Assembly: GCF_900100375.1 (NCBI RefSeq)
Contig: NZ_FNEZ01000004.1
Span: 62,001-126,000 of the forward strand
DNA: 64,000 nt
Direction: 5' to 3'
Source of the DNA: Flavobacterium noncentrifugens
GTDB lineage: Bacteria > Bacteroidota > Bacteroidia > Flavobacteriales > Flavobacteriaceae
Below, piece after piece: positions 2,165-22,106 of the stretch (within the stretch, counting starts at the first letter, position 1; each line of letters begins with the position of its first letter). Below the pieces are notes generated by a model. It saw nothing but the letters and a program-made list of their open reading frames with translations. It was not told where the DNA came from and made no database searches. The translations under genes and the position numbers were made by a program.

Positions 2165-2560
2165 ATGGTGCTTATCCTGAAAAGGACTTATTTCCCGGAA
2201 GGAACAAATGGAAAACTCGAATGCGAAGGCAAGCTGATCTGTAACACAATCGAGCTGCCGTGGAAAAATAACGAGAGAAGGGTTTCCTGCGTTCCTGAAG
2301 GGAAATATTTTTTATCCAAAAGGTATAGCAAAAAGCATAAATGGCATATCGAAGTTAGAAATGTCTTTGGTAGAAGCGGCATTTTATTTCATCCGGCCAA
2401 CAATGCCATGAAGGAACTGAATGGCTGCATTGCACCGGTGACAAAGATTTCGGGAGCCGGTTTAGGGCTTATGTCACGAAAGGCTTGTACAACTTTTAAA
2501 ACTTTAGTTTACAAAGCTTTAGACAAAAACGAGAAAGTAGTTTTAATTATCCAATCTTAA
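2165..2560 (+). CDS. DUF5675 family protein
   Basis: 131 aa. The features that suggest DUF5675 are an N-terminal LILKRTYFPEGTNGKL, a TIELPWKNNERRVSCVPEG core, then HIEVRNVFGRSGILFH and a GCIAP segment near residue 85. The family is common in phages and mobile elements of Bacteroidetes. A link to peptidoglycan or lysis has been suggested by context, but its reaction is not established. The gene begins 1 nt after the preceding stop and is followed by two small membrane proteins, which fits a lysis-like cassette. Its conserved His and Cys residues (GILFH, GCIAP) would be the first to test. Confidence 0.75.
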   Translation: MVLILKRTYFPEGTNGKLECEGKLICNTIELPWKNNERRVSCVPEGKYFLSKRYSKKHKWHIEVRNVFGRSGILFHPANNAMKELNGCIAPVTKISGAGLGLMSRKACTTFKTLVYKALDKNEKVVLIIQS

Positions 2561-2570
2561 ATTGATCATC

Positions 2571-2822
2571 ATGAATGTCATCAATAGAGCGCAAGCTCCA
2601 ACTCCAAAATTTTTCAAAGTCCTCAGAACCATCGGGATTATAATGCTCGCCGTAAGCGGCAGCATATTAACGGCGCCCGTAACTCTTCCTGCTGCGATAA
2701 TCAGCGTAGCTGGTTACGTCGCTGTCGCCGGAGGCGTTTTATCGGCTGTAAGCCAAGTTACTGTCGAAGACATTAGCAAAGCTTCACAAGAAATTGAAAA
2801 TAAGGCGCGCGATGGAAACTAA
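2571..2822 (+). CDS. Small membrane protein, 83 aa
   Basis: I chose the ATG at 2571 (MNVINRAQAP) over the upstream TTG. A basic, soluble N-terminus is followed by two closely spaced hydrophobic segments (residues about 20-40 and 44-62, rich in Gly, Ala, Ile and Val) and a short charged tail. The size and topology resemble holins or similar small phage-type membrane proteins, but I recognise no family. Its last 11 nt overlap the next gene, which points to translational coupling. Confidence 0.65.
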   Translation: MNVINRAQAPTPKFFKVLRTIGIIMLAVSGSILTAPVTLPAAIISVAGYVAVAGGVLSAVSQVTVEDISKASQEIENKARDGN

Positions 2823-2988
2823 TATTTCCCTCAAAACAGGAACCGCAGCGGGAACATTGTTAAGCATTTTGCCTAATCTTCATTCTGAAGACATTGCCAA
2901 AACAATTATATTAGCGGTACTTGGAGCAGTTGTAAGTTTTACTGCGAGTTTGCTCTTAAAAACGCTTACAAAAATTAGAAAGAAATAA
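2812..2988 (+). CDS. Small holin-like membrane protein, 58 aa
   Basis: Starts at METNISLKTGTA (ATG 2812), overlapping the previous gene by 11 nt. Hydrophobic stretches at residues about 12-20 and 28-48 precede a strongly basic C-terminus (LLKTLTKIRKK). It is the last gene of the 1405-2988 cassette, followed by a terminator at 3027-3054. The holin-like idea rests on size, charge and position beside a DUF5675 gene. Confidence 0.6.
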   Translation: METNISLKTGTAAGTLLSILPNLHSEDIAKTIILAVLGAVVSFTASLLLKTLTKIRKK

Positions 2989-3026
2989 TCCGGTTTTGAT
3001 TGGTAACCTTTTCCGGATTAAATTAG

Positions 3027-3054
3027 AAAGCCTGTTTCATACGAAGCAGGCTTT
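3027..3054 (+). terminator. Rho-independent terminator of the 1405-2988 cassette
   Basis: Stem aaagcctg (3027-3034) with caggcttt (3047-3054), extended by a T.G pair and further pairs towards a tetraloop, followed by a short T-run. It also lies between this cassette and the end of the convergent kinase gene. Confidence 0.75.
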
Positions 3055-3098
3055 TTAATTTGTGAATTCTGATTTGCAGTTTGGTTGGAGACGTTGTT

Positions 3099-8667: not shown

Positions 8668-9006
8668 ATGGAAGATAAAATCAATACGATCGAAGATTTG
8701 AAAGAGTTGGCATCGCATGCATTTCATGTAATTGAACCCTGTAAAAGCAGAAAAGGCAAAGCCACAGTACAAATTTCGATGAACAGCTACGCGGAATTGA
8801 GTTGGTATCTGATCGATGTTATTAAAGTTTCTGTAGCAGCGTTGGATGCCGAGCACGAAAGTGTAACTTATGTGAGGAATATTTCAAGCGCAGTCAGTGG
8901 TGTCTTGGCAAAATTGCTCAATATTATTCCGTTGGAAGAAATGGACCTTTTGGATAAAATCCACGAAATAATATTACCGATTCAGGAAGAAGAAAAGAAA
9001 GAATGA
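8668..9006 (+). CDS. Hypothetical protein, 112 aa
   Basis: A mostly helical, acidic protein (MEDKINTIEDLKELA; C-terminus EEEKKE) with no signal or membrane segment. It starts 3 nt after the HEPN-like gene, so the two are probably translated together. A small acidic partner behind a HEPN protein could be an antitoxin or immunity factor, but I see no motif that shows this. Confidence 0.6.
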   Translation: MEDKINTIEDLKELASHAFHVIEPCKSRKGKATVQISMNSYAELSWYLIDVIKVSVAALDAEHESVTYVRNISSAVSGVLAKLLNIIPLEEMDLLDKIHEIILPIQEEEKKE

Positions 9007-9007
9007 T

Positions 9008-9430
9008 TTACTCTTGCAAATACCGGCGAAGAACTGCGCTGCGCAATTCCTTAATCAAAGTAATGCTTTTGTAAAACTCCATTTCCTTTTCTTTAAGGAC
9101 TTTTAAAGCGTGAACATTTTTTAAATGCTGTTCGTAATCTTTTTGGAGGATGCTGGCTTTTGAGATAAACAGATTTTTAAATTCATTAATCCTTAGAAAT
9201 ACAATTACGGAGCCAACAAGATGTAGATGCCAAAATTTTGATTGCCAAAGGCCGAATGCAAGCCAGTAATAATTTTCTCTTTCGGCCTGGTCTGCAAATT
9301 CCAATACAAAGCAATTCAGGCAAGCTTCCGTTAATGGTTTTCCGCTATTCATTCCTTTATTTAGAATAAAAAAGTGTGGCTTTTGATAGGTGTTTTTCGG
9401 ACTGTGGGTTTTGATTTTAATTGTCTGCAT
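9008..9430 (-). CDS. DUF6943 family protein
   Basis: About 140 aa from MQTIKIKTHS (ATG 9430); the upstream MMTFFFSF extension is low-complexity and unlikely to be coding. Family-like segments are the PHFFILNKGMNSGKPLT block, a CLNCFVL Cys pair near residue 40, YYWLAFGLWQSKFW, and HLVGSVIVFLRI. DUF6943 proteins recur in Bacteroidetes integrative and conjugative elements and have no known function. It is convergent with the 8668 gene, 1 nt between stops, and its 5' side faces the structured non-coding block. Confidence 0.7.
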   Translation of the reverse strand: MQTIKIKTHSPKNTYQKPHFFILNKGMNSGKPLTEACLNCFVLEFADQAERENYYWLAFGLWQSKFWHLHLVGSVIVFLRINEFKNLFISKASILQKDYEQHLKNVHALKVLKEKEMEFYKSITLIKELRSAVLRRYLQE

Positions 9431-9780
9431 GGCTTCGATATTTAATTGTGACTGAATCATTTCAAAAGAAAAAAAAGAAAAAAAGAAAGTCATCATCGAA
9501 GCGGAGGTTTCAAATAAGGGCGGTTTTTAAAATCAAAATACTACCCGGCTTTAATCAAAATTGGTGAAAGCGGGAATCAGATTTGATGTTACAGAAGTAC
9601 TTGTGCGTGGAAAGAAATGTAGGGTGGAGATTTTTATTTTAAACCCGGAGGGCTTGAACCGAACGTTTTGAAACCGTAGCTTATCTTCCCTTTCTTTTAT
9701 TTGTTTTTTGGAAGGGAGTACGACTGCTTCCGGTTACCGCGATGTTTCTGGGGCAATCAAACACCCCCAAGCACCGCAGC

Positions 9781-9824
9781 AAATAAAAAAGGAAACGTAG
9801 CTTGCGGAGTTTTCTTTTTTATTT
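9781..9824. repeat. Stem-loop 1 with AGCTTGCGG loop
   Basis: Sixteen consecutive pairs (one G.T) close a 12-nt loop, gtagcttgcgga. The stem is A/T-rich, unlike stem-loop 2, which shares the loop but not the stem. Confidence 0.65.
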
Positions 9825-10046
9825 GTGAGGAGCGCCGTGGCGGTGTTGCGGCAATCAAACGGCCACCGCAGGACGGGAACGAACGGAGCTTGCGGAGTGA
9901 AGAGTAGTACTGCGAGCGTGAAACGGCACGGAAAAAATTTACGCCAGCCCTTTTTAGGGCGTTCCTTGATTTAGGGCACAGCGAAGTGGAGCCAACCGTG
10001 ATGGCTGGTTGAGGGAGCAACCGCACAATTAACATGGGGCGGCAGA

Positions 10047-10090
10047 CATGACACGACATAACGGAGCTTGCGGAGTTATGTGGTGTTGTG
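10047..10090. repeat. Stem-loop 2 with the same loop
   Basis: Sixteen positions with one mismatch and two G.T pairs close the 12-nt loop ggagcttgcgga. It has the same geometry as 9781-9824 with a different stem sequence, the pattern expected if structure and loop are conserved. Confidence 0.65.
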
Positions 10091-10143
10091 GATGCAGTAG
10101 CCCCAACGAATGACGACGGGCGGCGTGTGAAGACCGCGAGCCA

Positions 10144-10196
10144 AAAAAAAATATTTGCAAGTGCTTTTTTTCTAAGCTGTTGCAAATATTTTTTTT
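10144..10196. repeat. 17-bp perfect inverted repeat
   Basis: aaaaaaaatatttgcaa (10144-10160) and its exact complement (10180-10196), with a 19-nt spacer. With flanking gcc/ggc the arms reach 20 bp with one extra A. Candidates are an origin-of-transfer structure or a strong bidirectional terminator at the end of the 16434-10343 operon. Confidence 0.6.
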
Positions 10197-10342
10197 GGCG
10201 GTGCCCGGGAACGGAAGGAGGAACGACTGACTGGGAGGGACGCGGCGAAACTAAGCCGAACTAGGAGTGAGACCGCTTGATTGCCCGTGTAATAAATTCA
10301 AATTTCTAATAACTAATAAACAAGTAGTGCCTGTATATAAAT

Positions 10343-10519
10343 TCAATGATTTTGATCTTTTAAAAGCCTACGAAGCTTCTGTAACATTTCGTCAGCTTTT
10401 GCTAATTGTGATTGTTTAAACTCATAACTCTCATAATTTGTTTCATCAAATGATTTTTTAGAATATGTGACAGAAGTAATTAAGAAATCTAAGTCGTCTT
10501 TAGTTAAAGTGTTTTCCAT
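10343..10519 (-). CDS. Small acidic/helical protein, 58 aa
   Basis: Start ATG at 10519 (MENTLTKDDLDFLITSVTYS), stop at 10343. It is charged, helical and without a membrane segment; the C-terminal half is coiled-coil-like (FKQSQLAKADEMLQKLRRLL). It begins 16 nt after the radical SAM gene's stop in the same direction, which makes it the last gene of the 16434-10343 operon. I recognise no family. Its position behind a complex multi-gene operon suggests a small partner or regulator. Confidence 0.6.
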   Translation of the reverse strand: MENTLTKDDLDFLITSVTYSKKSFDETNYESYEFKQSQLAKADEMLQKLRRLLKDQNH

Positions 10520-10535
10520 AAGTTGTTATTATTAA

Positions 10536-12479
10536 TTATTCGTAATCGTAAGTCAAAGTCAAATTAACAAAGCGATCCTTCTTGATTAAATTATTAAATC
10601 TCCTGCGAATATTTTCAATCTCTTTATCATCTTCCATTACATCATTTTTTGAAACTTGGTAATGTGATAAAAACAATAATAGTTCTGGGTGTGAGGTTTT
10701 TTCTTGCAGGTTTTTAAAATCACTATTTTCGATAATTTGCTTGACTTCTTCCCACAGATCACTATTTTTTATTCGGTAGAATTCTTTACGCCAAATATCG
10801 GTTAATCCTGAATCCTTAAAAACATTTCTATAAATAATATACGTTTCCGGCATGTAAAGAATCTCATTAAACTCTTCAAGATTATTTCCAAATGCGATAT
10901 GGAAAAAATTACTGCCAGATGCAACAATACCTTTTGTTACATTTAGAATCGACTGAATAGCACGTATAAATTTTTTGTTCCAATGTTTTCCGACATAATC
11001 TCTATGCTTCGCTTCTTCGCCGAATAATGGAATGTATTTCATTGGAAAGGAAAAAATATTAATATTTAATTCCTTGGCCAATTCAATATTGATTTCCATC
11101 CTTCTATATAACTCGCCTGGCTTATCTTTGAAATTAAATAATAGATAATTTGACAAATCCCTAATATCGTACTTGGCAGCCAATCTTACCGCGCTTACGT
11201 ATTGTTTTTCCATTCCTAGATAATCAAATGCAATTCGCAATGGACGAATAGGAATTTCGCTCATTTTTTGCATCAGTTCGTCAGTTACATACCGAGCATC
11301 CGTGCCTTGATTGAAATCTACATATCTTAATTTTTTAGATTTTTTACGGTGTTTTTCATATAAGTGGCTTAGTTCTGTATAAGCTAAAATTAAATTTCCT
11401 TTTGTCGTGGTATTTAAATTTAGTAATCCATATTTTTCCATCGTATTGGAAAACTCGCCGGCAATCTCTTTTCTTTTTGATTTGGATTTTAAAAGTTGAT
11501 TTAGTAGATTGAAACAACGTTTTGTATTTGCACGATCGTTGTATCCACTCTTTAAATTTTTAATTGCAATTTCAAATTGATTTGGCTCGACAAAAGTGGC
11601 ACCTTTATGAAAACCCATTTCTTTTATTTCATCTATTATCTCAACAAAATTTGGCGATGCTAAAACATTGTTATCCATTAAAAGCAAATTTTGTTGTTCT
11701 CCGTAATTCTCTTTGATTTGCTTGAACTTGTCGATTGTATCAATTTTTGGCTTATATGTCGGCTCAAGTATTGGCACAGAACAGAACGCACATTTCCTTG
11801 TGCAACCTTTGGTCATAAAGGTAAAGTATGCACTTCCCGTTGGATATTTATAATCTATTTCATCCAATATTGAATAGTCAAGCGGTAAATCGTCGATTAT
11901 AATATTATTATCATCAAGTGCTCCCCGTCGATCTAATATTCCTTTAAAAGGTTTTATACCAGTTTCCAATTCCAGCTCCTCAGGAAGAAGTGATGCTAAA
12001 ACACCACCTACCATTAGATTTTTACCGTCTTTAACAAGATGTTTTGCAGCGTGTATAGTTTCTATCGTTTTCTTCCAGTAAAATGTAAATAATGTAGTAA
12101 CAAAAATTCTGTCCCATTGCGGATTATTTATGTATTCTTTATTTTTATAATAATTGGCATGAAATAATAGCGTCTCAGTAATTAGTTCTGACTTTTCAAT
12201 ATTTACTTTCGAAAGAAATTCAAGATTATTTTTTCTCCGTGATTTGATAAAATTCTTTATTTCAAATTCTAATTCTTTCCAAATTTCAAGAGCCGCAAAG
12301 TTTTCAAGTTCTTTTAAGCAATCTTGAAAAATTTCATCAATAAAGAAATCTTTCATTTCTCCTTTATAAAATCGTACTTCATCGCCTAACATGCGATGAT
12401 AAGTAGCGATTTTCATCAGTCCAATAGGCGGATATTTATTCCGATAGTTAGGTTCTAATAAAAGTACTTTTCTTTTCAT
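10536..12479 (-). CDS. Large B12-binding-like radical SAM protein
   Basis: 647 aa. The N-terminal part resembles the Rossmann-like B12-binding domain of class B radical SAM enzymes (KVLLLEPNYRNKYPPIGLMK, then a GGVLASLLPEE loop near 158), but I do not see the cobalamin-binding DxHxxG. The radical SAM cluster motif is Cys226-x3-Cys230-x2-Cys233 (GCTRKCAFCSVP), followed by a barrel with LLMDNNVLASP near 270. The last 250 residues are a long helical extension. It should bind a 4Fe-4S cluster and SAM; the substrate is unknown. It starts 3 nt after the Hsp90-like gene. It is not viperin-like: too long, with extra domains on both sides. Confidence 0.8.
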   Translation of the reverse strand: MKRKVLLLEPNYRNKYPPIGLMKIATYHRMLGDEVRFYKGEMKDFFIDEIFQDCLKELENFAALEIWKELEFEIKNFIKSRRKNNLEFLSKVNIEKSELITETLLFHANYYKNKEYINNPQWDRIFVTTLFTFYWKKTIETIHAAKHLVKDGKNLMVGGVLASLLPEELELETGIKPFKGILDRRGALDDNNIIIDDLPLDYSILDEIDYKYPTGSAYFTFMTKGCTRKCAFCSVPILEPTYKPKIDTIDKFKQIKENYGEQQNLLLMDNNVLASPNFVEIIDEIKEMGFHKGATFVEPNQFEIAIKNLKSGYNDRANTKRCFNLLNQLLKSKSKRKEIAGEFSNTMEKYGLLNLNTTTKGNLILAYTELSHLYEKHRKKSKKLRYVDFNQGTDARYVTDELMQKMSEIPIRPLRIAFDYLGMEKQYVSAVRLAAKYDIRDLSNYLLFNFKDKPGELYRRMEINIELAKELNINIFSFPMKYIPLFGEEAKHRDYVGKHWNKKFIRAIQSILNVTKGIVASGSNFFHIAFGNNLEEFNEILYMPETYIIYRNVFKDSGLTDIWRKEFYRIKNSDLWEEVKQIIENSDFKNLQEKTSHPELLLFLSHYQVSKNDVMEDDKEIENIRRRFNNLIKKDRFVNLTLTYDYE

Positions 12480-12482
12480 CTT

Positions 12483-14024
12483 TCAATTAAACTTGTCTAT
12501 AATTCTCTTTTTGATTAATTCTGATAAATCAAAATCAAGATCTTCTTCGAGGATTTCAAATATTTCCAATACTACTGTTCGTTGTTCCTCATTTAACTTT
12601 TTAAAAGTTGGTGGGGTATATTTACTAATCTGTAAATCTTGCCCCGTTAAATTTTTAACGGATAAATCACTATCACCTATTATACTTTTGAATAAGTTTT
12701 TTACATTTTCAGAAGTAAAAGATTTGGCATTTATTTTGTCAATTTCAATTTTAGCTTTAGTAGCTTTTTCTTCAAGTTCCCTCAATCTATTTAGATGGAA
12801 GCTTTCCACTGCAGAATTCTCAAAGGAACCTTTTTTGTCTTGAAACTCTTCATATGCCTCTTTGTATTTTTGAACCTCTTTTTTCCTATTGTGCAGTTTG
12901 GATGCAGTCTGGGCTAAGCGATTTTCGAGATTTTCAGCCTTTAAAATTTCTTTAATATTTTTTTCAAATTGGAGAAATGTTGCATTTTCTGTGAAGTAAT
13001 CACGTCTCGCGTTAGGAACAAATCCATCATTCAAAGTATGAATTTCTCCTACAAACCTTAAATTAGTTCGTTCTTGGTCAAAAAATCTATTGCTTGTAAA
13101 TTCATTTCCGATCGAAATATTTTTTGTTCTAATTCGCAATCCTCTTTCATAATTTGATTCATCAAGAACAATATTTGACATTTCCCGATAACCATACCAA
13201 CACGTGGCTATCAGTTCCTGACTGTCATTTCGTATATCTACAAAATCAACTCCAATCAAATTGGAGATATTTCCTTTTTCGTCGGTAAATGAATCTTTAT
13301 ATCGTTTGTAAAGAGTAATATTATTTATTTCAACATTATACTCGTCAAGAACTAAATTCCGGCTTTTTAGGTACGTTTTTATTTCATCAGTAAAAGAAAA
13401 TGATGAAGAAAATGGAACTGGGGCGACCATTGATAAGTATTCTGTAACAAAATCTACATTTAGCAAATCGTCACTATGAACATTGTCAAGTATGACACGA
13501 AAATAGTGCTTTTCAGGATCTTCTTGTTTTGGCGGATCTTCTACTGTAATTACACTCATTGCCGCCATAGCGTCACTTTTGTCATTACGATTATCAATTA
13601 TTTTCTTAAGCAATTTTGCGTCAAGTATCATTTTACTTTTCACACTTTCGCCTTTGTAACTTGTCTCAAAAATTAATCTATCACAATATCCTAATCCTCC
13701 TAACCTTCCAATTCCTCTGAAACCCTTTCTTTTTGTTGATTCCTTTTGAGAATTAGCAACGTCACCTAAAAGACGAACCACGTCTTTTTCAGGTACGCCT
13801 GTTGCGTTATCCGTTATTGTTATTTTTCTATTAACTCGATCGATAATAATATCTATTTTACCTTCGCTCTTTTCTTTCAATAGACTTAATTCAACGGCCT
13901 CATCAATTTGGTCAGCGGCATTTTGAATATATTCACGGAAAACAAACCTTGCATCGTCATACATACCCGATGTTAATGTTTCCAAAACTGTTTTGCCTAT
14001 GGTTGGTTTAAAAGACTCTGCCAT
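12483..14024 (-). CDS. GHKL / Hsp90-like ATPase
   Basis: 513 aa. The N-terminal Bergerat fold is complete: N-box FREYIQNAADQ (Glu31 to Asn35), Asp72 in the TDNATGVP segment, and a glycine lid GFRGIGRLGGLGY (101-113). Residues 200-370 resemble the middle region of Hsp90-like proteins, with a TSNRFFDQERTNLRF and EIHTL segment. Residues 380-450 form a charged coiled coil. The C-terminal part has no clear Hsp90 dimerisation domain, so it is a stand-alone Hsp90-like ATPase of the sort found in defence operons, not HtpG. It overlaps the upstream gene by 17 nt and the downstream gene follows after 3 nt. Confidence 0.85.
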   Translation of the reverse strand: MAESFKPTIGKTVLETLTSGMYDDARFVFREYIQNAADQIDEAVELSLLKEKSEGKIDIIIDRVNRKITITDNATGVPEKDVVRLLGDVANSQKESTKRKGFRGIGRLGGLGYCDRLIFETSYKGESVKSKMILDAKLLKKIIDNRNDKSDAMAAMSVITVEDPPKQEDPEKHYFRVILDNVHSDDLLNVDFVTEYLSMVAPVPFSSSFSFTDEIKTYLKSRNLVLDEYNVEINNITLYKRYKDSFTDEKGNISNLIGVDFVDIRNDSQELIATCWYGYREMSNIVLDESNYERGLRIRTKNISIGNEFTSNRFFDQERTNLRFVGEIHTLNDGFVPNARRDYFTENATFLQFEKNIKEILKAENLENRLAQTASKLHNRKKEVQKYKEAYEEFQDKKGSFENSAVESFHLNRLRELEEKATKAKIEIDKINAKSFTSENVKNLFKSIIGDSDLSVKNLTGQDLQISKYTPPTFKKLNEEQRTVVLEIFEILEEDLDFDLSELIKKRIIDKFN

Positions 14025-14850
14025 TCTTATTTATTTTTTTTCTAACTTTATCAGGCACATCTTGATTTTCATCTGATAAATCATGCCCATGATATACTGG
14101 TCGATCGACATACGTCTTTAAAAAACGTACGTAAACATTATTTTCTAAATCAAAGTTGAAATACTTACCATCATGTAAAGTTGCTTCTTTAAAAAGTTTC
14201 TCAGCTTTCTCTGTTCCATTCGGTTGATGGAAGCAAGTAAATGGAGAAATTTTCTCCCCATCAGAAGAATATCTTAGCTTTCTAGTATGTTTTGAATTAT
14301 GTTCGAATCGTAATTTATAATCTTCAAAAAACTTAATAATTTCTTCTTCGGAATTATATCTTAGTGTATCAATGACAACATCATTGTTTTGCCTATTTAC
14401 AACAAGATTACTATTCTGAGCATAGAAGTAATTGTAAGCAAGAAATTTATGTTCAGGATTTTGGTTATTGTGGAAAAGATGACCGATTTGACTTTGCGTT
14501 TCTGCTTGAATACTGCCACTAAAATGTGGTTTTATAATAGCAGGATTAGATGTTATCGAATTGTCAGAGTTATCTGTATATAGGATCCAATTCGAAAAAG
14601 TGTCTGTTAAAAATTCCAAAGTTAGTTTCTGAAAGTCGTAACCAATTTCTTTTACCATCTTGTAAGGGAACTCATCCATTATTGAGGTATAAAGTTCATT
14701 TCTTAATAGTACCGGTAGATTTAATTCTCTAATTTGAGTATAAATATTTGGTGCTAAATTCTTCAAAATGATATACTTATTTTTATTTGCGTTGAAATCT
14801 TGTTCGCACCAAATAAAAGTAGATATGTCTATAGTAGCAATAAAACTCAT
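14008..14850 (-). CDS. Unknown partner protein of the DUF3696 ATPase, 280 aa
   Basis: Soluble protein with an Asp in a hydrophobic N-terminal strand (FIATIDISTFIW) and a His-rich C-terminus (PVYHGHDLSDENQDVPDK). The arrangement of N-terminal Asp and later acidic and His residues could be a diverged nuclease or PIN-like fold, but I see no family signature and would not name one. Its start overlaps the stop of the AAA ATPase (4 nt, ATGA), so translation is coupled. An AAA ATPase with a tightly coupled effector-like second gene is the usual plan of ATPase-based defence modules. Confidence 0.7.
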   Translation of the reverse strand: MSFIATIDISTFIWCEQDFNANKNKYIILKNLAPNIYTQIRELNLPVLLRNELYTSIMDEFPYKMVKEIGYDFQKLTLEFLTDTFSNWILYTDNSDNSITSNPAIIKPHFSGSIQAETQSQIGHLFHNNQNPEHKFLAYNYFYAQNSNLVVNRQNNDVVIDTLRYNSEEEIIKFFEDYKLRFEHNSKHTRKLRYSSDGEKISPFTCFHQPNGTEKAEKLFKEATLHDGKYFNFDLENNVYVRFLKTYVDRPVYHGHDLSDENQDVPDKVRKKINKNGRVF

Positions 14851-16229
14851 ACTTGCTGATTTAAACGTTTTTTCATTTGGGCTTTCAAAATAGCTTTCAA
14901 TTCGACATCTGTTTTTTCGATAAAACCTTCTGGATATGGAAGCTCAATAACACCAAAATCATCAATCGTAATGTTTCTAAATAAGACGTCCTTAGTACCA
15001 ACTTCCACAAAAGTTAATAATACTTTGTTATCTAGTTCATTACTTTGATCTTCCGCAATTCTTCTTCGCAACCTTGTTATAAAGTGATCGCTATGAGTTT
15101 CTACAACAACCTTTTTCCCTTGCTCAATTAATGAGATTAAAAAATCTGTCAAATCACTTTGAACTTTCGGATGAAGATGTAATTCAGGTTGCTCAAGAAC
15201 TAGCGTTTCGTTCTCATCAATTCGCAGTCCCTCAACAATAATTGGTAAAATCTGACTAATTCCGAATCCTACATGTTTTATAGTTGATGTAATTCCTGAG
15301 AGACTAACTACATAAATAACGTAGGATTCAGCTTCTTTTTTGGAATAAATATCCGCACAGAGTTTAAATCGTTCACAAAGCCAGTATTTTACCGCACTTA
15401 ATAAAGTGCCTTCAGCTTTTGAAAACTTTATATTGTCCTCTGTTTCTTCTATTTTATAAAATATTGTTGGTTTTTCAGATAGTTCACAAAAAGTTTCCGC
15501 AAGATTTTCACCACCAGTTCCAATTGTATTGCTATTTCCATTAACAGAATAGGCATCTTGTGGACCATTACGCAATGGCCCGATATAATTCAAATTGGAA
15601 AAAAAGTCTTTTAGTATTGTCTTTATTCCATCTAACCTAAGTACTTCTTTAGTAATTCCATTTTCAGTTTCGATTTCATAATCGGTCGGGATAAATGATG
15701 AATAGTTGACCTTTTTAATAGCGTATTCATTTCCGTACAATTTATCTCCAAATACCGAGACATTAGATTCTATGTTGTAGTCTTTACCGTTATTTGTTAC
15801 ATTAATGTAATTTGTCTTTAACTCAGTTAAAATCTTTACTGAAAAAGAACTTACAATAATTTTTTCAATATAATCAAATTCAATCTCGATTTGTAAATCG
15901 TAATTATCAAATACGCTATAAATACTTAACTCTGAAAAATTCTGATATTTTTCTAGATCAGACTTACTGAAAACAAATTCAACCTTCAGCTTGTTTTCTT
16001 TATTTTTATCTTTTAAAATATCAAGATAATTGCGAATTGGAAAAATTTTACCTTCCAGAAATAATGGATGTTGCGCGGAATCTATTTCTAAAGTCTGCTT
16101 CAGGAGAAGTAGCAGCTGGATAAATGACGATTTTCCCGAGCTATTTGTCCCAGATAAAATCGTAAGCGGTTCCATTTCATAATTGGATAATGAACCTATT
16201 GACTTAAAGTTATATATTGATATTTTCAT
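14847..16229 (-). CDS. AAA ATPase, DUF3696-type (OLD/ABC-like)
   Basis: 460 aa. Walker A GTNSSGKS (27-34), signature-like GFGISQ (321-326), Walker B ETLVLEQPEL (341-350) followed by HLHP, and switch His in VVVETHSDHF (about 375-383). The C-terminal end (YPEGFIEKTDVELKAI) matches the tail of DUF3696 proteins. These SMC/OLD-like ATPases act in several anti-phage modules, where they sense infection and control an effector. Its first 20 nt overlap the XRE regulator gene, and its stop overlaps the next gene's start. Confidence 0.85.
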   Translation of the reverse strand: MKISIYNFKSIGSLSNYEMEPLTILSGTNSSGKSSFIQLLLLLKQTLEIDSAQHPLFLEGKIFPIRNYLDILKDKNKENKLKVEFVFSKSDLEKYQNFSELSIYSVFDNYDLQIEIEFDYIEKIIVSSFSVKILTELKTNYINVTNNGKDYNIESNVSVFGDKLYGNEYAIKKVNYSSFIPTDYEIETENGITKEVLRLDGIKTILKDFFSNLNYIGPLRNGPQDAYSVNGNSNTIGTGGENLAETFCELSEKPTIFYKIEETEDNIKFSKAEGTLLSAVKYWLCERFKLCADIYSKKEAESYVIYVVSLSGITSTIKHVGFGISQILPIIVEGLRIDENETLVLEQPELHLHPKVQSDLTDFLISLIEQGKKVVVETHSDHFITRLRRRIAEDQSNELDNKVLLTFVEVGTKDVLFRNITIDDFGVIELPYPEGFIEKTDVELKAILKAQMKKRLNQQV

Positions 16230-16434
16230 TATTTACAAATTCTATTTTGATGGTTTTTCCAAATCCTTTCTCAACAACTTCAAGTAAAGTATTTAGATTA
16301 ATGTTCATATCATCCTCACATTCGATTCTAGAGATATAACTCCTTTTTTTTCCGACCTTTACGGCTAACTCTTGTTGCGTCAAATTGCTTTTTTCGCGCG
16401 CTTCTTTTAGCATTTTACCAATGTTGTTTTTCAT
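16210..16434 (-). CDS. XRE-family HTH regulator, 74 aa
   Basis: A minimal Cro/CI-type helix-turn-helix (MLKEAREKSNLTQQELAVKV, then RSYISRIE) with a short tail. It is the first gene of the six-gene operon and overlaps the AAA ATPase gene by 20 nt. The likely role is autorepression of the operon. An inverted repeat (AACTT-aa-AAGTT) 35-45 bp upstream could be its operator. Confidence 0.85.
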   Translation of the reverse strand: MKNNIGKMLKEAREKSNLTQQELAVKVGKKRSYISRIECEDDMNINLNTLLEVVEKGFGKTIKIEFVNNENINI

Positions 16435-16467
16435 ATCAAAAAATTGTGTGGTATTTCGCAGCTAATG

Positions 16468-16483
16468 TAACTTAAAAGTTGCA
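16468..16483. promoter_or_regulatory. Operator-like inverted repeat upstream of the operon
   Basis: gtaacttaaaagttgc: arms AACTT/AAGTT around a 2-bp centre, with one extra outer pair. It lies 34-49 bp upstream of the XRE start. Binding by that XRE protein is an inference. Confidence 0.35.
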
Positions 16484-16571
16484 ATATTTTAGCGTATTAT
16501 CAGGGAAATTTGAGATACTCAGAATAATACTAATGGCTTTATGATTATCGAACAAGTTTAAAAAACGTACA

Positions 16572-17210
16572 TCATGCTCTGTTTCTTTCATTAAGCGAAT
16601 CAAGATAATGCTGCAACTCGTACAAATACATTGTGCTATGGTTTGTTTTTTCTATAGATAAACCAATTTCAACAAAATTTATATGTTCCACGAAGGATTT
16701 TTCACCAACTAAATCTTGCAGGATTATAAAAACTAAATGCAAAAGATTTTTATTAGTACAGTGCACGGTAAATTTTTTTAGATACACTATAATGTCGATT
16801 TTTTTTACATCCTCATATTGGCATGGCATAAATTTAAGTTCACTAGCCTTCAATTCTATGTCCTTAAAAACATAGGGCTTATCTAATCCGGCTTCCATTT
16901 CGTCAATGCTTTGCGAGGGCTGAATAAAAGCTACAAACTTCCAGTTACGTAGTTTTGGCGCATTTTCGATTAAGATTGTAACCTGGTCGAAATATTCCGG
17001 ATTTCCACTTGCTGAAATTACAAGCTGTATAGACTCATTTACACTTGCCGGAAACATCAATATACTTTCCAGTTGCTCACAGTAGTTGTGCAGATGCTTG
17101 TCAAGCCAATAGATAAACATTTTTTGCACTGCTGGTTTCTCATTTCTAAGATTTCTAAGTGTTTGGTCATTGTATAGGATCCAGTCCCAAAATAAAGTAA
17201 TCGATTTCAT
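16572..17210 (-). CDS. Hypothetical protein, 212 aa
   Basis: Soluble; begins MKSITLFWDWILYNDQTLRN. It contains a conserved-looking block ISASGNPEYFDQVTILIENA followed by APKLRNWKFVAFIQPSQS. I believe proteins with this pattern are widespread uncharacterised bacterial proteins, but I cannot name the family. It is separated from the six-gene operon by about 140 bp and runs in the same direction. Confidence 0.65.
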   Translation of the reverse strand: MKSITLFWDWILYNDQTLRNLRNEKPAVQKMFIYWLDKHLHNYCEQLESILMFPASVNESIQLVISASGNPEYFDQVTILIENAPKLRNWKFVAFIQPSQSIDEMEAGLDKPYVFKDIELKASELKFMPCQYEDVKKIDIIVYLKKFTVHCTNKNLLHLVFIILQDLVGEKSFVEHINFVEIGLSIEKTNHSTMYLYELQHYLDSLNERNRA

Positions 17211-21269: not shown

Positions 21270-22106
21270 ATGAAAGTATTTACGTCGATGCTGCTTGCCG
21301 AATTAGAGGAACATTTGATCAAAATTGATTTGCATAAAACAGGCACAATTCAATCAGCCGAAAATGCCATCAACATAACCATTGTTATTCTCGAAAAACT
21401 AAAGACGTTCTCAATTAGCCATACTTTCGAAAACAAAGGCGACGAAATTAATTTCTTTAAAATAATTAAACCGCAGTTCGTAAGCCGATTGATTTATTAT
21501 AACGAAATCCACAATATTGAAAGCAATAAGCCCTTTGGCACCAGTCGCCATCTGAGAAAATACTTCAATGCGGAATTAGATAAGCTGAAAATCTACTTTA
21601 ATGAAAACTTAGATTTTTACAAATATTTCCGCACTGGAAATACAGTGCTCGACAAAAAGTATTTTCTCCGTGGCCGTTATGATATTAAACTTACTCTGGA
21701 TAGTTCTTATTTCCAAGCGGACAATCGATTCACTACTTCGCACGATTTTAAAGTGGCCAAGATTATCGCGAATGATCAGATTAAAGTTTATTTGGAGAAC
21801 GAAGTGGCCAAACTGGATGCGAAGCCGGAGCCTTATAAGATTACAGATCGGCACATTCAAAAATGGACCGGTTCAAAAATTGCCTTGATTGAATTGATTT
21901 ATGCATTGCATGCTGAAGGGGTTTTTAATAATGGTACTACTGATTTAAAAGAAACGGCTAAATTTTTTGAGGAAACTTTTGATATTGACTTAGGGCAGTT
22001 TCACAGGACGTTTTTTGAAATGAGGGCGCGGAAGTCGGAGAGGACAAAGTTTTTGAATAGTTTGAGAGATACTTTGGTGAGGAGAATGGATGAGGTGGAT
22101 GAATAA
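21270..22106 (+). CDS. rteC: RteC-like transfer/excision regulator
   Basis: 278 aa, soluble. Matches the RteC family: helical N-terminus (MLLAELEEHLIKIDL), FFKIIKPQFVSRLIYYNEIH, FYKYFRTGNTVLDKKYFLRG, then a winged-helix-like C-terminus (KIALIELIYALHAEGVFNNG). In CTnDOT, RteC activates the excision operon in response to an upstream cascade. Here it sits next to a sensor-type AraC regulator and the excisionase operon, which fits an excision-control role. Promoter and operator are visible just upstream. Confidence 0.85.
   Translation: MKVFTSMLLAELEEHLIKIDLHKTGTIQSAENAINITIVILEKLKTFSISHTFENKGDEINFFKIIKPQFVSRLIYYNEIHNIESNKPFGTSRHLRKYFNAELDKLKIYFNENLDFYKYFRTGNTVLDKKYFLRGRYDIKLTLDSSYFQADNRFTTSHDFKVAKIIANDQIKVYLENEVAKLDAKPEPYKITDRHIQKWTGSKIALIELIYALHAEGVFNNGTTDLKETAKFFEETFDIDLGQFHRTFFEMRARKSERTKFLNSLRDTLVRRMDEVDE

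Follow-up and report, generated by a model that had tools for sequence, protein, structure and literature searches.

A modular structured block on Flavobacterium islands as a candidate large non-coding RNA of mobile elements, with a 5' domain shared with conjugative elements

Among the large ornate non-coding RNAs described so far, ROOL (659 nt in one member) is found on prophages and phages and has no known function (PMC12286853). GOLLD likewise has no known function. OLE is a large ornate RNA described from Gram-positive extremophiles, with known protein partners. Rfam also contains Flavo-1, a motif repeated in flavobacteria (PMC9723704). Conjugative elements carry folded Frpo/ssi elements just upstream of ssb and of further genes in the leading region (PMC11541004).

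The window referred to below is the whole 64,000-nt stretch of DNA analysed, from the 4.03 Mb genome of Flavobacterium noncentrifugens. It contains a GC-rich non-coding block of ~830 nt on the + strand (~9464–10292, both ends being inferred from where conservation starts and stops), flanked by a DUF6943 gene and a radical SAM gene. With somewhat more than even confidence, we read this block as a large structured non-coding RNA of mobile elements, similar in kind to ROOL and GOLLD and without Rfam similarity, whose transcription is unproven. Searches with cmscan against Rfam 15 covered the window, the block (E up to 10), eight homologous loci and 17 loci carrying its 5' domain (domain I); no family attained its gathering score in the block, where scores stayed far below that level, and Flavo-1 was not among the block's matches at E up to 10. 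Membership of ROOL, GOLLD or OLE was rejected for want of a covariance-model match in any of these sequences, as was a group II intron or other Rfam ribozyme, for which no such Rfam model matched the window or the block.

The gap of about 1 kb between the DUF6943 gene (9008–9496, − strand) and the radical SAM gene (10536–12479, − strand) holds no credible gene, and GC content was 0.526 at 9751–10250 versus 0.344 at 9001–9500 and 0.290 at 10251–10750. A first-pass annotation had proposed a non-coding block with GC islands at 9600–10300, which was borne out in substance, the true extent being wider. That annotation had also named translation of the block as an observation that would refute it. 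The sole ORF of at least 70 aa in the gap (9757–10185, − strand, TTG start, 142 aa) had no Pfam match, and the corresponding ORFs of homologues were pieces of unequal extent without a conserved frame; the coding reading was rejected on these two grounds, which leaves the annotation unrefuted on this point. The features of the block and of its divergent neighbour are as follows.

9008–9430, − strand: gene of the DUF6943 family, divergent neighbour, predicted half-HsdS-like fold (start at 9430 inferred; the longest ORF starts at 9496)
9464–10292, + strand: whole structured block, predicted non-coding RNA (conservation limits, fold)
9467–9719, + strand: domain I, the 5' domain (match to model R2 at 9485–9696, 112.3 bits, E = 3.5e-20)
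9470–9489, + strand: purine-rich 5' arm of the domain I closing helix (inverted repeat, fold)
9530–9531, + strand: 5' members of two domain I pairs with significant covariation (partners 9640 and 9639)
9639–9640, + strand: 3' side of the pairs 9530–9640 and 9531–9639 of domain I
9690–9709, + strand: pyrimidine-rich 3' arm of the domain I closing helix (inverted repeat, fold)
9780–9825, + strand: hairpin 1, loop GTAGCTTGCGGA (inverted repeat, fold)
9850–9862, + strand: 5' arm of a long-range complementarity, GGCAATCAAACGG (pairing predicted from complementarity and fold alone)
9883–9898, + strand: second copy of the module ACGNAG...CGNAGT, without a long stem
10050–10087, + strand: hairpin 2, loop GGAGCTTGCGGA (inverted repeat, fold)
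10084–10283, + strand: conserved 3' core (model R1, 144.8 bits)
10144–10196, + strand: hairpin 3, ~20 bp, the strongest-covarying helix, with an internal U.U mismatch in most relatives
10273–10285, + strand: 3' arm of the long-range complementarity, CCGCTTGATTGCC, at the conserved 3' block end (end seen in the alignment; pairing predicted from complementarity and fold alone)

Within the block AACGNAGCTTGCGGAGT occurred three times (inside 9781–9810, 9869–9898 and 10047–10076), and the three exact copies of AGCTTGCGGAGT in the 64 kb all lay there. Hairpin 1 (9780–9796/9809–9825) has 17-nt arms that are 94% complementary, and hairpin 2 (~10050–10062/10075–10087) has one mismatch; the loop is common to both (11 of 12 nt), the stem sequences differ, and the third loop copy (9883–9898) has no long stem around it. 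This agrees with the annotation, which had noted two stem-loops with a common loop and unlike stems plus a third unpaired copy, save that its stem length of 16 bp is only approximate, given the mismatch in hairpin 2. Its wording 'hairpin-dense' held against shuffled blocks and failed against the flanks: across 126 loci, hairpins with at least 8 Watson-Crick pairs numbered 2.09 per kb in the block, 2.08 downstream, 2.47 upstream and 0.97 in shuffled blocks. What sets the block apart is its conservation and polarity, not the number of its hairpins. Relative to 20 dinucleotide shuffles, folding of the block gave z = −4.64 on the + strand and −5.29 on the − strand, and since both strands fold better than shuffles, single-sequence folding cannot tell which of them is functional. 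The gain in minimum free energy over shuffles was 10.0 kcal/mol for 30 family cores, versus 0.5 kcal/mol for 28 downstream stretches.

As we read the homologue alignments, the loop highlighted by the annotation, AGCTTGCGG, represents one variant of the module ACGNAG(1–20 nt)CGNAG(T/A), which has a small inner hairpin of varying length. This module is nearly confined to the block, with 76 occurrences in blocks, spread over 60 of 126 loci, versus one downstream and four in shuffled blocks; the exact 9-mer of the loop occurred 24 times in 19 loci (three times in the window) and never downstream. A 14-mer of the loop was discarded as a family marker, since the matches listed in public contigs included unrelated organisms; 80 named loci were among these listed matches, and 12 of them re-tested with R1, seven of these also with R2, gave no match. 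When each locus was folded alone, hairpin 3 could be parsed in 88 loci; it had at least 15 pairs in 84 of them, and in 70 it contained a U.U mismatch with pairs on both sides. The 38 of 126 loci that could not be parsed were left out (42 of 126 in a stricter version). One locus, L412, has ~55 nt inserted within the loop of hairpin 3, with the stem unbroken.

The source genome carries a second copy that is 78% identical (blastn of 9500–10310), and the same query matched 44 of 199 genomes, namely the source genome, 38 congeneric genomes and five from outside the genus but within the order, where the matches were short. Aligned homologues consist of conserved segments in constant order with variable stems between them, and conservation ends shortly after GAGACCGCTTGATTGCCCGT, where unrelated cargo starts. 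R1, a covariance model of the 3' core (window 10084–10283), found the family in 97 of the 398 Flavobacterium genomes searched (82 of the 333 well-assembled ones), a single genome having as many as five copies, which answers the annotation's other possible refutation, a lack of conservation in other genomes. Among 296 genomes drawn from the order R1 matched eight, all of them Flavobacterium, and there were three partial and weak matches elsewhere. The block had no blastn match in plasmid records or in 50,697 phage records, and a first homologue search with a 605-aa neighbour protein found nothing. We studied 132 loci with this kind of 3' body (type A), reduced to 126 by removal of redundant ones; the family thus provides more than 100 natural copies within one genus, with exchangeable modules.

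Covariation among homologues, which the annotation had suggested testing, was positive in both of the domains aligned. In the 3' core (alignment A1, 25 sequences) 96.7% of cells were paired and 13 of 27 pairs changed on both sides, with a covariation score of 0.328 versus a shuffled mean of 0.163 (0 of 500 shuffles as high) and 0.034–0.123 for slid partners. In domain I (alignment A4, 13 sequences from several families) compensatory changes were seen in 13 of 29 pairs, and the score was 0.292 versus 0.126 after shuffling (0 of 500 as high) and at most 0.144 for slid partners. The count of further pair types was matched by 38 of 500 shuffles in A1 and 21 of 500 in A4, and both structures were derived from the alignments in which they were counted, which favours them over slid partners. 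Under a tree-aware null, with substitutions redistributed on a FastTree tree of the 126 loci, only four core pairs reached E < 0.05, all of them complementary in >87% of sequences (three in hairpin 3, one in a variable insert); the corresponding test of domain I found 9531–9639 and 9530–9640 significant, two others being purine-run artefacts. Hairpin 3 arms had a mean Watson-Crick score of 28.5 when paired within their own locus versus 12.9 across loci, and 3.1% of chimaeras reached 28.5 (84 loci). The stretch ~9720–10083, with hairpin 1 and most of hairpin 2, lies outside this evidence, which covers the 3' core and domain I. The 'covariation-like pattern' of the annotation, seen between two hairpins of one copy, is no test by itself; the comparison across genomes is one, and it is positive for these two domains. 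These results show a multi-domain fold of the + strand conserved through compensatory changes. An origin by chance or drift, as a GC-rich non-coding remnant, has only the absence of a gene to recommend it; covariation and conservation refute it, and we give it practically no credence.

The strand was assigned from mismatches, counted in helices that had been scored on Watson-Crick pairs only, so that neither strand was favoured. Hairpin 3 contained 103 G.T versus 10 A.C mismatches (84 loci), and block hairpins in 126 loci contained 67 versus 19, compared with 38 versus 44 downstream and 57 versus 60 upstream; as the loci share ancestry, the counts cannot be treated as independent. The + strand is taken to be the functional one because its G.T mismatches are the wobble pairs of a + strand fold. 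This polarity favours RNA and does not exclude folded single-stranded DNA, as G.T is also the milder mismatch in DNA. In domain I alone (61 sequences) the bias was weak, 28 G.T versus 15 A.C, and cannot decide the strand. No conserved TAnnTTTG box was found upstream of the block, a relaxed form being present near −80 in only 8 of 59 loci; another, near +180 and thus within the block itself, occurred in 10 of the 59. The RNA reading is weakened by this absence of a conserved promoter box, by the lack of a demonstrated terminator and by the absence of expression data.

Neighbours of the 132 type A loci included a MARQ-type protein (50 loci), DUF6943 (47, of which 44 on the − strand), a DUF5675-type cluster (43), a tyrosine recombinase/integrase cluster (43), a primase cluster (17) and a topoisomerase (10, nine of them directly upstream of the core); Pfam matches of representatives comprised a CHC2/Toprim primase, two Phage_integrase proteins, an Arm-DNA-bind integrase and a topoisomerase. 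Overall, the family occurs in integrase-, primase-, relaxase- and tra-linked contexts of mobile DNA. The structure model of the MARQ protein was of low confidence (pLDDT 70), and neither DUF6943 nor MARQ had a sequence match to a solved structure at E up to 1. In the window, a MARQ-type protein, DUF5675 and a small hydrophobic protein, which we take to be holin-like, lie at 1405–2822, a trio found upstream of many blocks, and an RteC-family gene (21270–22106, 8.9e-82) lies at the island's right side.

The first downstream ORF of at least 95 aa was convergent with the block in 105 of 128 loci and on the + strand in 23 of 128, and because of this convergence the block is not the leader of a downstream gene. 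A long untranslated region on the − strand, either a structured leader of DUF6943 or ssb or the 3' tail of the cargo operon, would suit both the genes that converge on the block and a divergent gene that is constant in many contexts, such as DUF6943. The mismatch polarity puts the fold on the + strand instead, weakly so for domain I alone, and the tail version fails in the 23 loci with a + strand gene downstream; we consider this explanation unlikely.

Cargo was diverse, 110 proteins (one per cluster, from 232 candidates) matching 134 Pfam families. A PADLOC and Pfam scan, done without a control set, had AbiEii (three) and type I restriction (two) at the top, along with Abi_2 and others. The putative RNA has no tie to particular cargo genes, and enrichment of defence genes is not claimed. 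The convergent operon of the window (10536–17210) encodes a radical SAM protein, a GHKL ATPase, an unknown protein, an AAA_15 ATPase and an HTH protein and is candidate defence cargo; its radical SAM protein had no PADLOC match. In eight islands (L281, L390, L391, L437, L441, L453, L454 and L460) an ORF of 100–116 aa, 42–434 nt past the core, opens with a RuvC-I-like motif, GLDLGTNSIGWA, and the two tested had weak RuvX/RuvC matches in Pfam; the motif resembles the one at the start of Cas9. In four further loci (L363, L365, L366 and L367) type A RNAs lie between RHS-like modules, beside a CHC2 primase and a pair of tyrosine recombinases, and these assemblies are arranged in tandem as near-identical units of 6–8 kb; the one RHS-like module tested had a CdiA_C domain.

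In many islands the block stands at the junction of conserved and variable genes, and one domain I copy (L526) lies ~0.2 kb from a MobC-like gene, which could point to an integration or mobilization site (att or oriT) with hairpins acting as DNA. Compensatory changes and strand bias are unexpected for a double-stranded site, and a 19-mer of the 3' end (up to two mismatches) was not repeated in the flanks, save in 6 of 132 loci with a second RNA copy, and had no repeat in the window; larger elements could end beyond the flanks covered. No PF03432 relaxase match was present in 10 of 18 genomes with strong R1 matches (31 genomes searched), the source genome included; the search was for PF03432 only, and sub-cutoff matches as well as G391, with its weak R1 match, were left out of the count. 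The origin of transfer that the annotation had offered as an alternative thus loses ground for the window copy, whose genome has no PF03432 match, other relaxase families being outside the search. We regard a DNA site of either kind as very unlikely.

Domain I consists of a closing helix with a purine-rich and a pyrimidine-rich arm, an inner helix and a helix ending AATACTACCC...GGGTGGAGATT, and it is common to type A bodies, as here, and type B bodies of ~1.2 kb (nine loci aligned). One locus, L471, has at 2350–3080 a type B-like body with three imperfect units at spacings of ~260 and 330 nt, each with AATGNAAATACTACCG. The domain I model R2 matched 39 of 296 genomes of the order, in 14 of 90 genera and three families, and 12 of 247 genomes drawn from the phylum, two of them beyond the order yet in the same class. 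G882, outside the order, had three matches with E from 7e-8 to 5e-7 and a fourth at 0.003, and the value for G724 was 3.1e-4. Domain I was recognised by pattern in 41 of the 124 type A cores whose upstream sequence was long enough (8 of 132 loci with <1000 nt upstream were left out), and 41 of the 83 without the pattern had the purine run alone; since R1 bodies are often without domain I, the two may be separate genes or functions. The data show a modular family: its 5' part, domain I, recurs on conjugative elements from at least two Bacteroidota orders, and its 3' body varies.

In eight loci from other genomes domain I directly precedes an SSB-like gene that is divergent from it, followed in at least seven by a DUF932-like gene (Pfam confirmed the one SSB tested at 5.9e-16 and the one DUF932 tested at 1.4e-59), and in four of the eight (G391, G230, G520 and G060) a relaxase lay 24–34 kb away on the same contig. 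A 381-base query from one SSB-type locus matched 12 PLSDB records from Bacteroides, Parabacteroides, Phocaeicola and Prevotella, and R2 confirmed all six of the records examined (E = 4e-11 to 2e-5, + strand). Three of the 12 records carry the annotation of a hypothetical protein across the match, which counts against a purely non-coding element there. On annotated Bacteroides and Parabacteroides plasmids domain I heads divergent operons of PcfK, PcfJ and DUF3873 (L531, L536), of PcfK (L535) or of JAB, ArdA and DUF3873 (L532, with tra genes further off). Wherever an above-cutoff relaxase lay within 40 kb on the contig, domain I pointed away from it (10 of 10), so that the divergent gene points toward the relaxase. 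Domain I is thus divergent from ssb, pcfK or radC/ardA operons, whose location in the leading region is not established. Its position at the head of ssb and anti-restriction operons makes it a candidate controller of early expression in conjugative elements of Bacteroidota.

DUF6943, the divergent gene of the window, was modelled with AlphaFold2 (pLDDT 93). The best Foldseek match was a type I methyltransferase at E = 8.8e-3, none being below 1e-3. In a structural re-alignment, 12 of the best 14 entries were specificity subunits or DNA methyltransferases (Z from 8.2, for 7eew, to 5.6) and the other two were Prx/Esub1 (Z 7.8 and 7.2); the first unrelated entry had Z 5.5, with three further methyltransferase or restriction entries at or below this value. 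According to the tool's own warning, Z under 8 may reflect a common arrangement, and families outside the structures listed for DUF6943 are not excluded. The predicted DUF6943 fold resembles one half of a type I specificity subunit (half HsdS), which, beside domain I, would fit an anti-restriction role, by analogy with ArdA in Bacteroides. The DUF6943 protein of the window had no match in plasmid and phage records, no literature on DUF6943 was found, and a literature search for 'Esub1' (title of PDB 8vsr) returned nothing relevant.

Such an anti-restriction neighbour, the divergent SSB-like and plasmid operons, the orientation away from relaxases and the tolerance of G.T in DNA would all fit domain I being a folded single-stranded DNA promoter or primer site, the Bacteroidota counterpart of Frpo/ssi. 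The + strand of entering single-stranded DNA would fold and drive the divergent ssb, ardA/radC, pcfK or DUF6943 genes before there is a second strand, and the 3' bodies would be extensions of the folded strand or separate RNAs. Against this, the 10 of 18 genomes noted above have no PF03432 relaxase match, the 3' body is far bigger and more elaborate than a promoter requires, and the − strand of domain I lacks a conserved −7 box, TAnnTTTG having 15 matches in 59 loci with no 10-nt bin reaching six loci (3 of 62 domain I sequences were left out of the promoter scan, and non-canonical boxes are not excluded). The constant polarity relative to relaxases may reflect common ancestry only, and sub-cutoff relaxase matches within ~1 kb in G531 and G593 converge with domain I. 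On balance this account is the main rival of the RNA reading, possible though less likely than not. For its part, a trans-acting RNA would not need domain I to lie constantly divergent beside early genes, and both may hold, RNA and single-stranded DNA promoter, for different modules.

A large structured RNA of mobile elements, as the annotation had suggested first, remains the best supported reading of the block because it has a conserved architecture, compensatory changes, + strand polarity and relatives on many mobile elements, expression being inferred. The size and elaboration of the fold, the U.U mismatch and the occurrence in genomes lacking a PF03432 match (the one relaxase family searched) also speak for RNA. 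The block fulfils two criteria for large ornate structured non-coding RNAs, a conserved complex structure of >500 nt with covariation (seen in the 3' core and domain I) and carriage on mobile DNA. Under this RNA reading the island would carry an RNA gene of ~830 nt, with transcription on the + strand inferred, leading away from DUF6943 in the direction of the convergent cargo operon. Its product would be an element-encoded structural or regulatory RNA, probably acting as an RNA or RNA-protein particle and similar in kind to ROOL, GOLLD and OLE RNAs. It may control early steps in the establishment of the element, jointly with whichever early gene is divergent from it, this being DUF6943, ssb, pcfK or an ardA/radC operon depending on context. 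A broader proposal, which we put forward as speculation more apt to be wrong than right, is that conjugative elements and islands share a folded domain I that controls divergent early genes on cell entry, as a single-stranded DNA promoter or as RNA, and that in islands it is extended by exchangeable bodies into giant RNAs of 0.8–1.2 kb. If this were true, the early genes under domain I would comprise ssb, ardA, radC and DUF6943, the last encoding a half-HsdS-like anti-restriction protein.

No description of the family was found in the titles and abstract openings retrieved on large or structured RNAs of Flavobacterium and Bacteroidetes mobile elements, ROOL/GOLLD, small RNAs of Bacteroides conjugative elements and leading regions, or in the accessible portions of PMC9723704, PMC12286853, PMC11541004 and PMC10994844. 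The block resembles ROOL in being a large ornate non-coding RNA (here a predicted one) on mobile DNA (PMC12286853). ROOL is often near tRNA islands and sits on prophages and phages, whereas the window's only tRNA is 34 kb from the block and the family resides on islands and conjugative elements, the window's block having no blastn match in the phage records searched. It differs from GOLLD in having conserved modules at both ends that are combined independently, and has no Rfam similarity to it. With OLE it would share large size and ornate structure, again without Rfam similarity. RteR, a small RNA of the Bacteroides conjugative element CTnDOT, is about 90 nt long and far smaller than the block. 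Frpo/ssi (PMC11541004) are like domain I in being folded elements immediately upstream of ssb and other genes; the block family differs in that the scan found no conserved promoter boxes, in being much larger in islands and in occurring in genomes without a PF03432 match. The kind of molecule, large ornate RNAs of mobile DNA, is known; what appears to be new is the family itself, the way it is built from modules, and its link with early genes on conjugative elements. Few such RNAs of mobile elements are known, and this family would add one whose 5' domain reaches the conjugative elements of gut Bacteroides.
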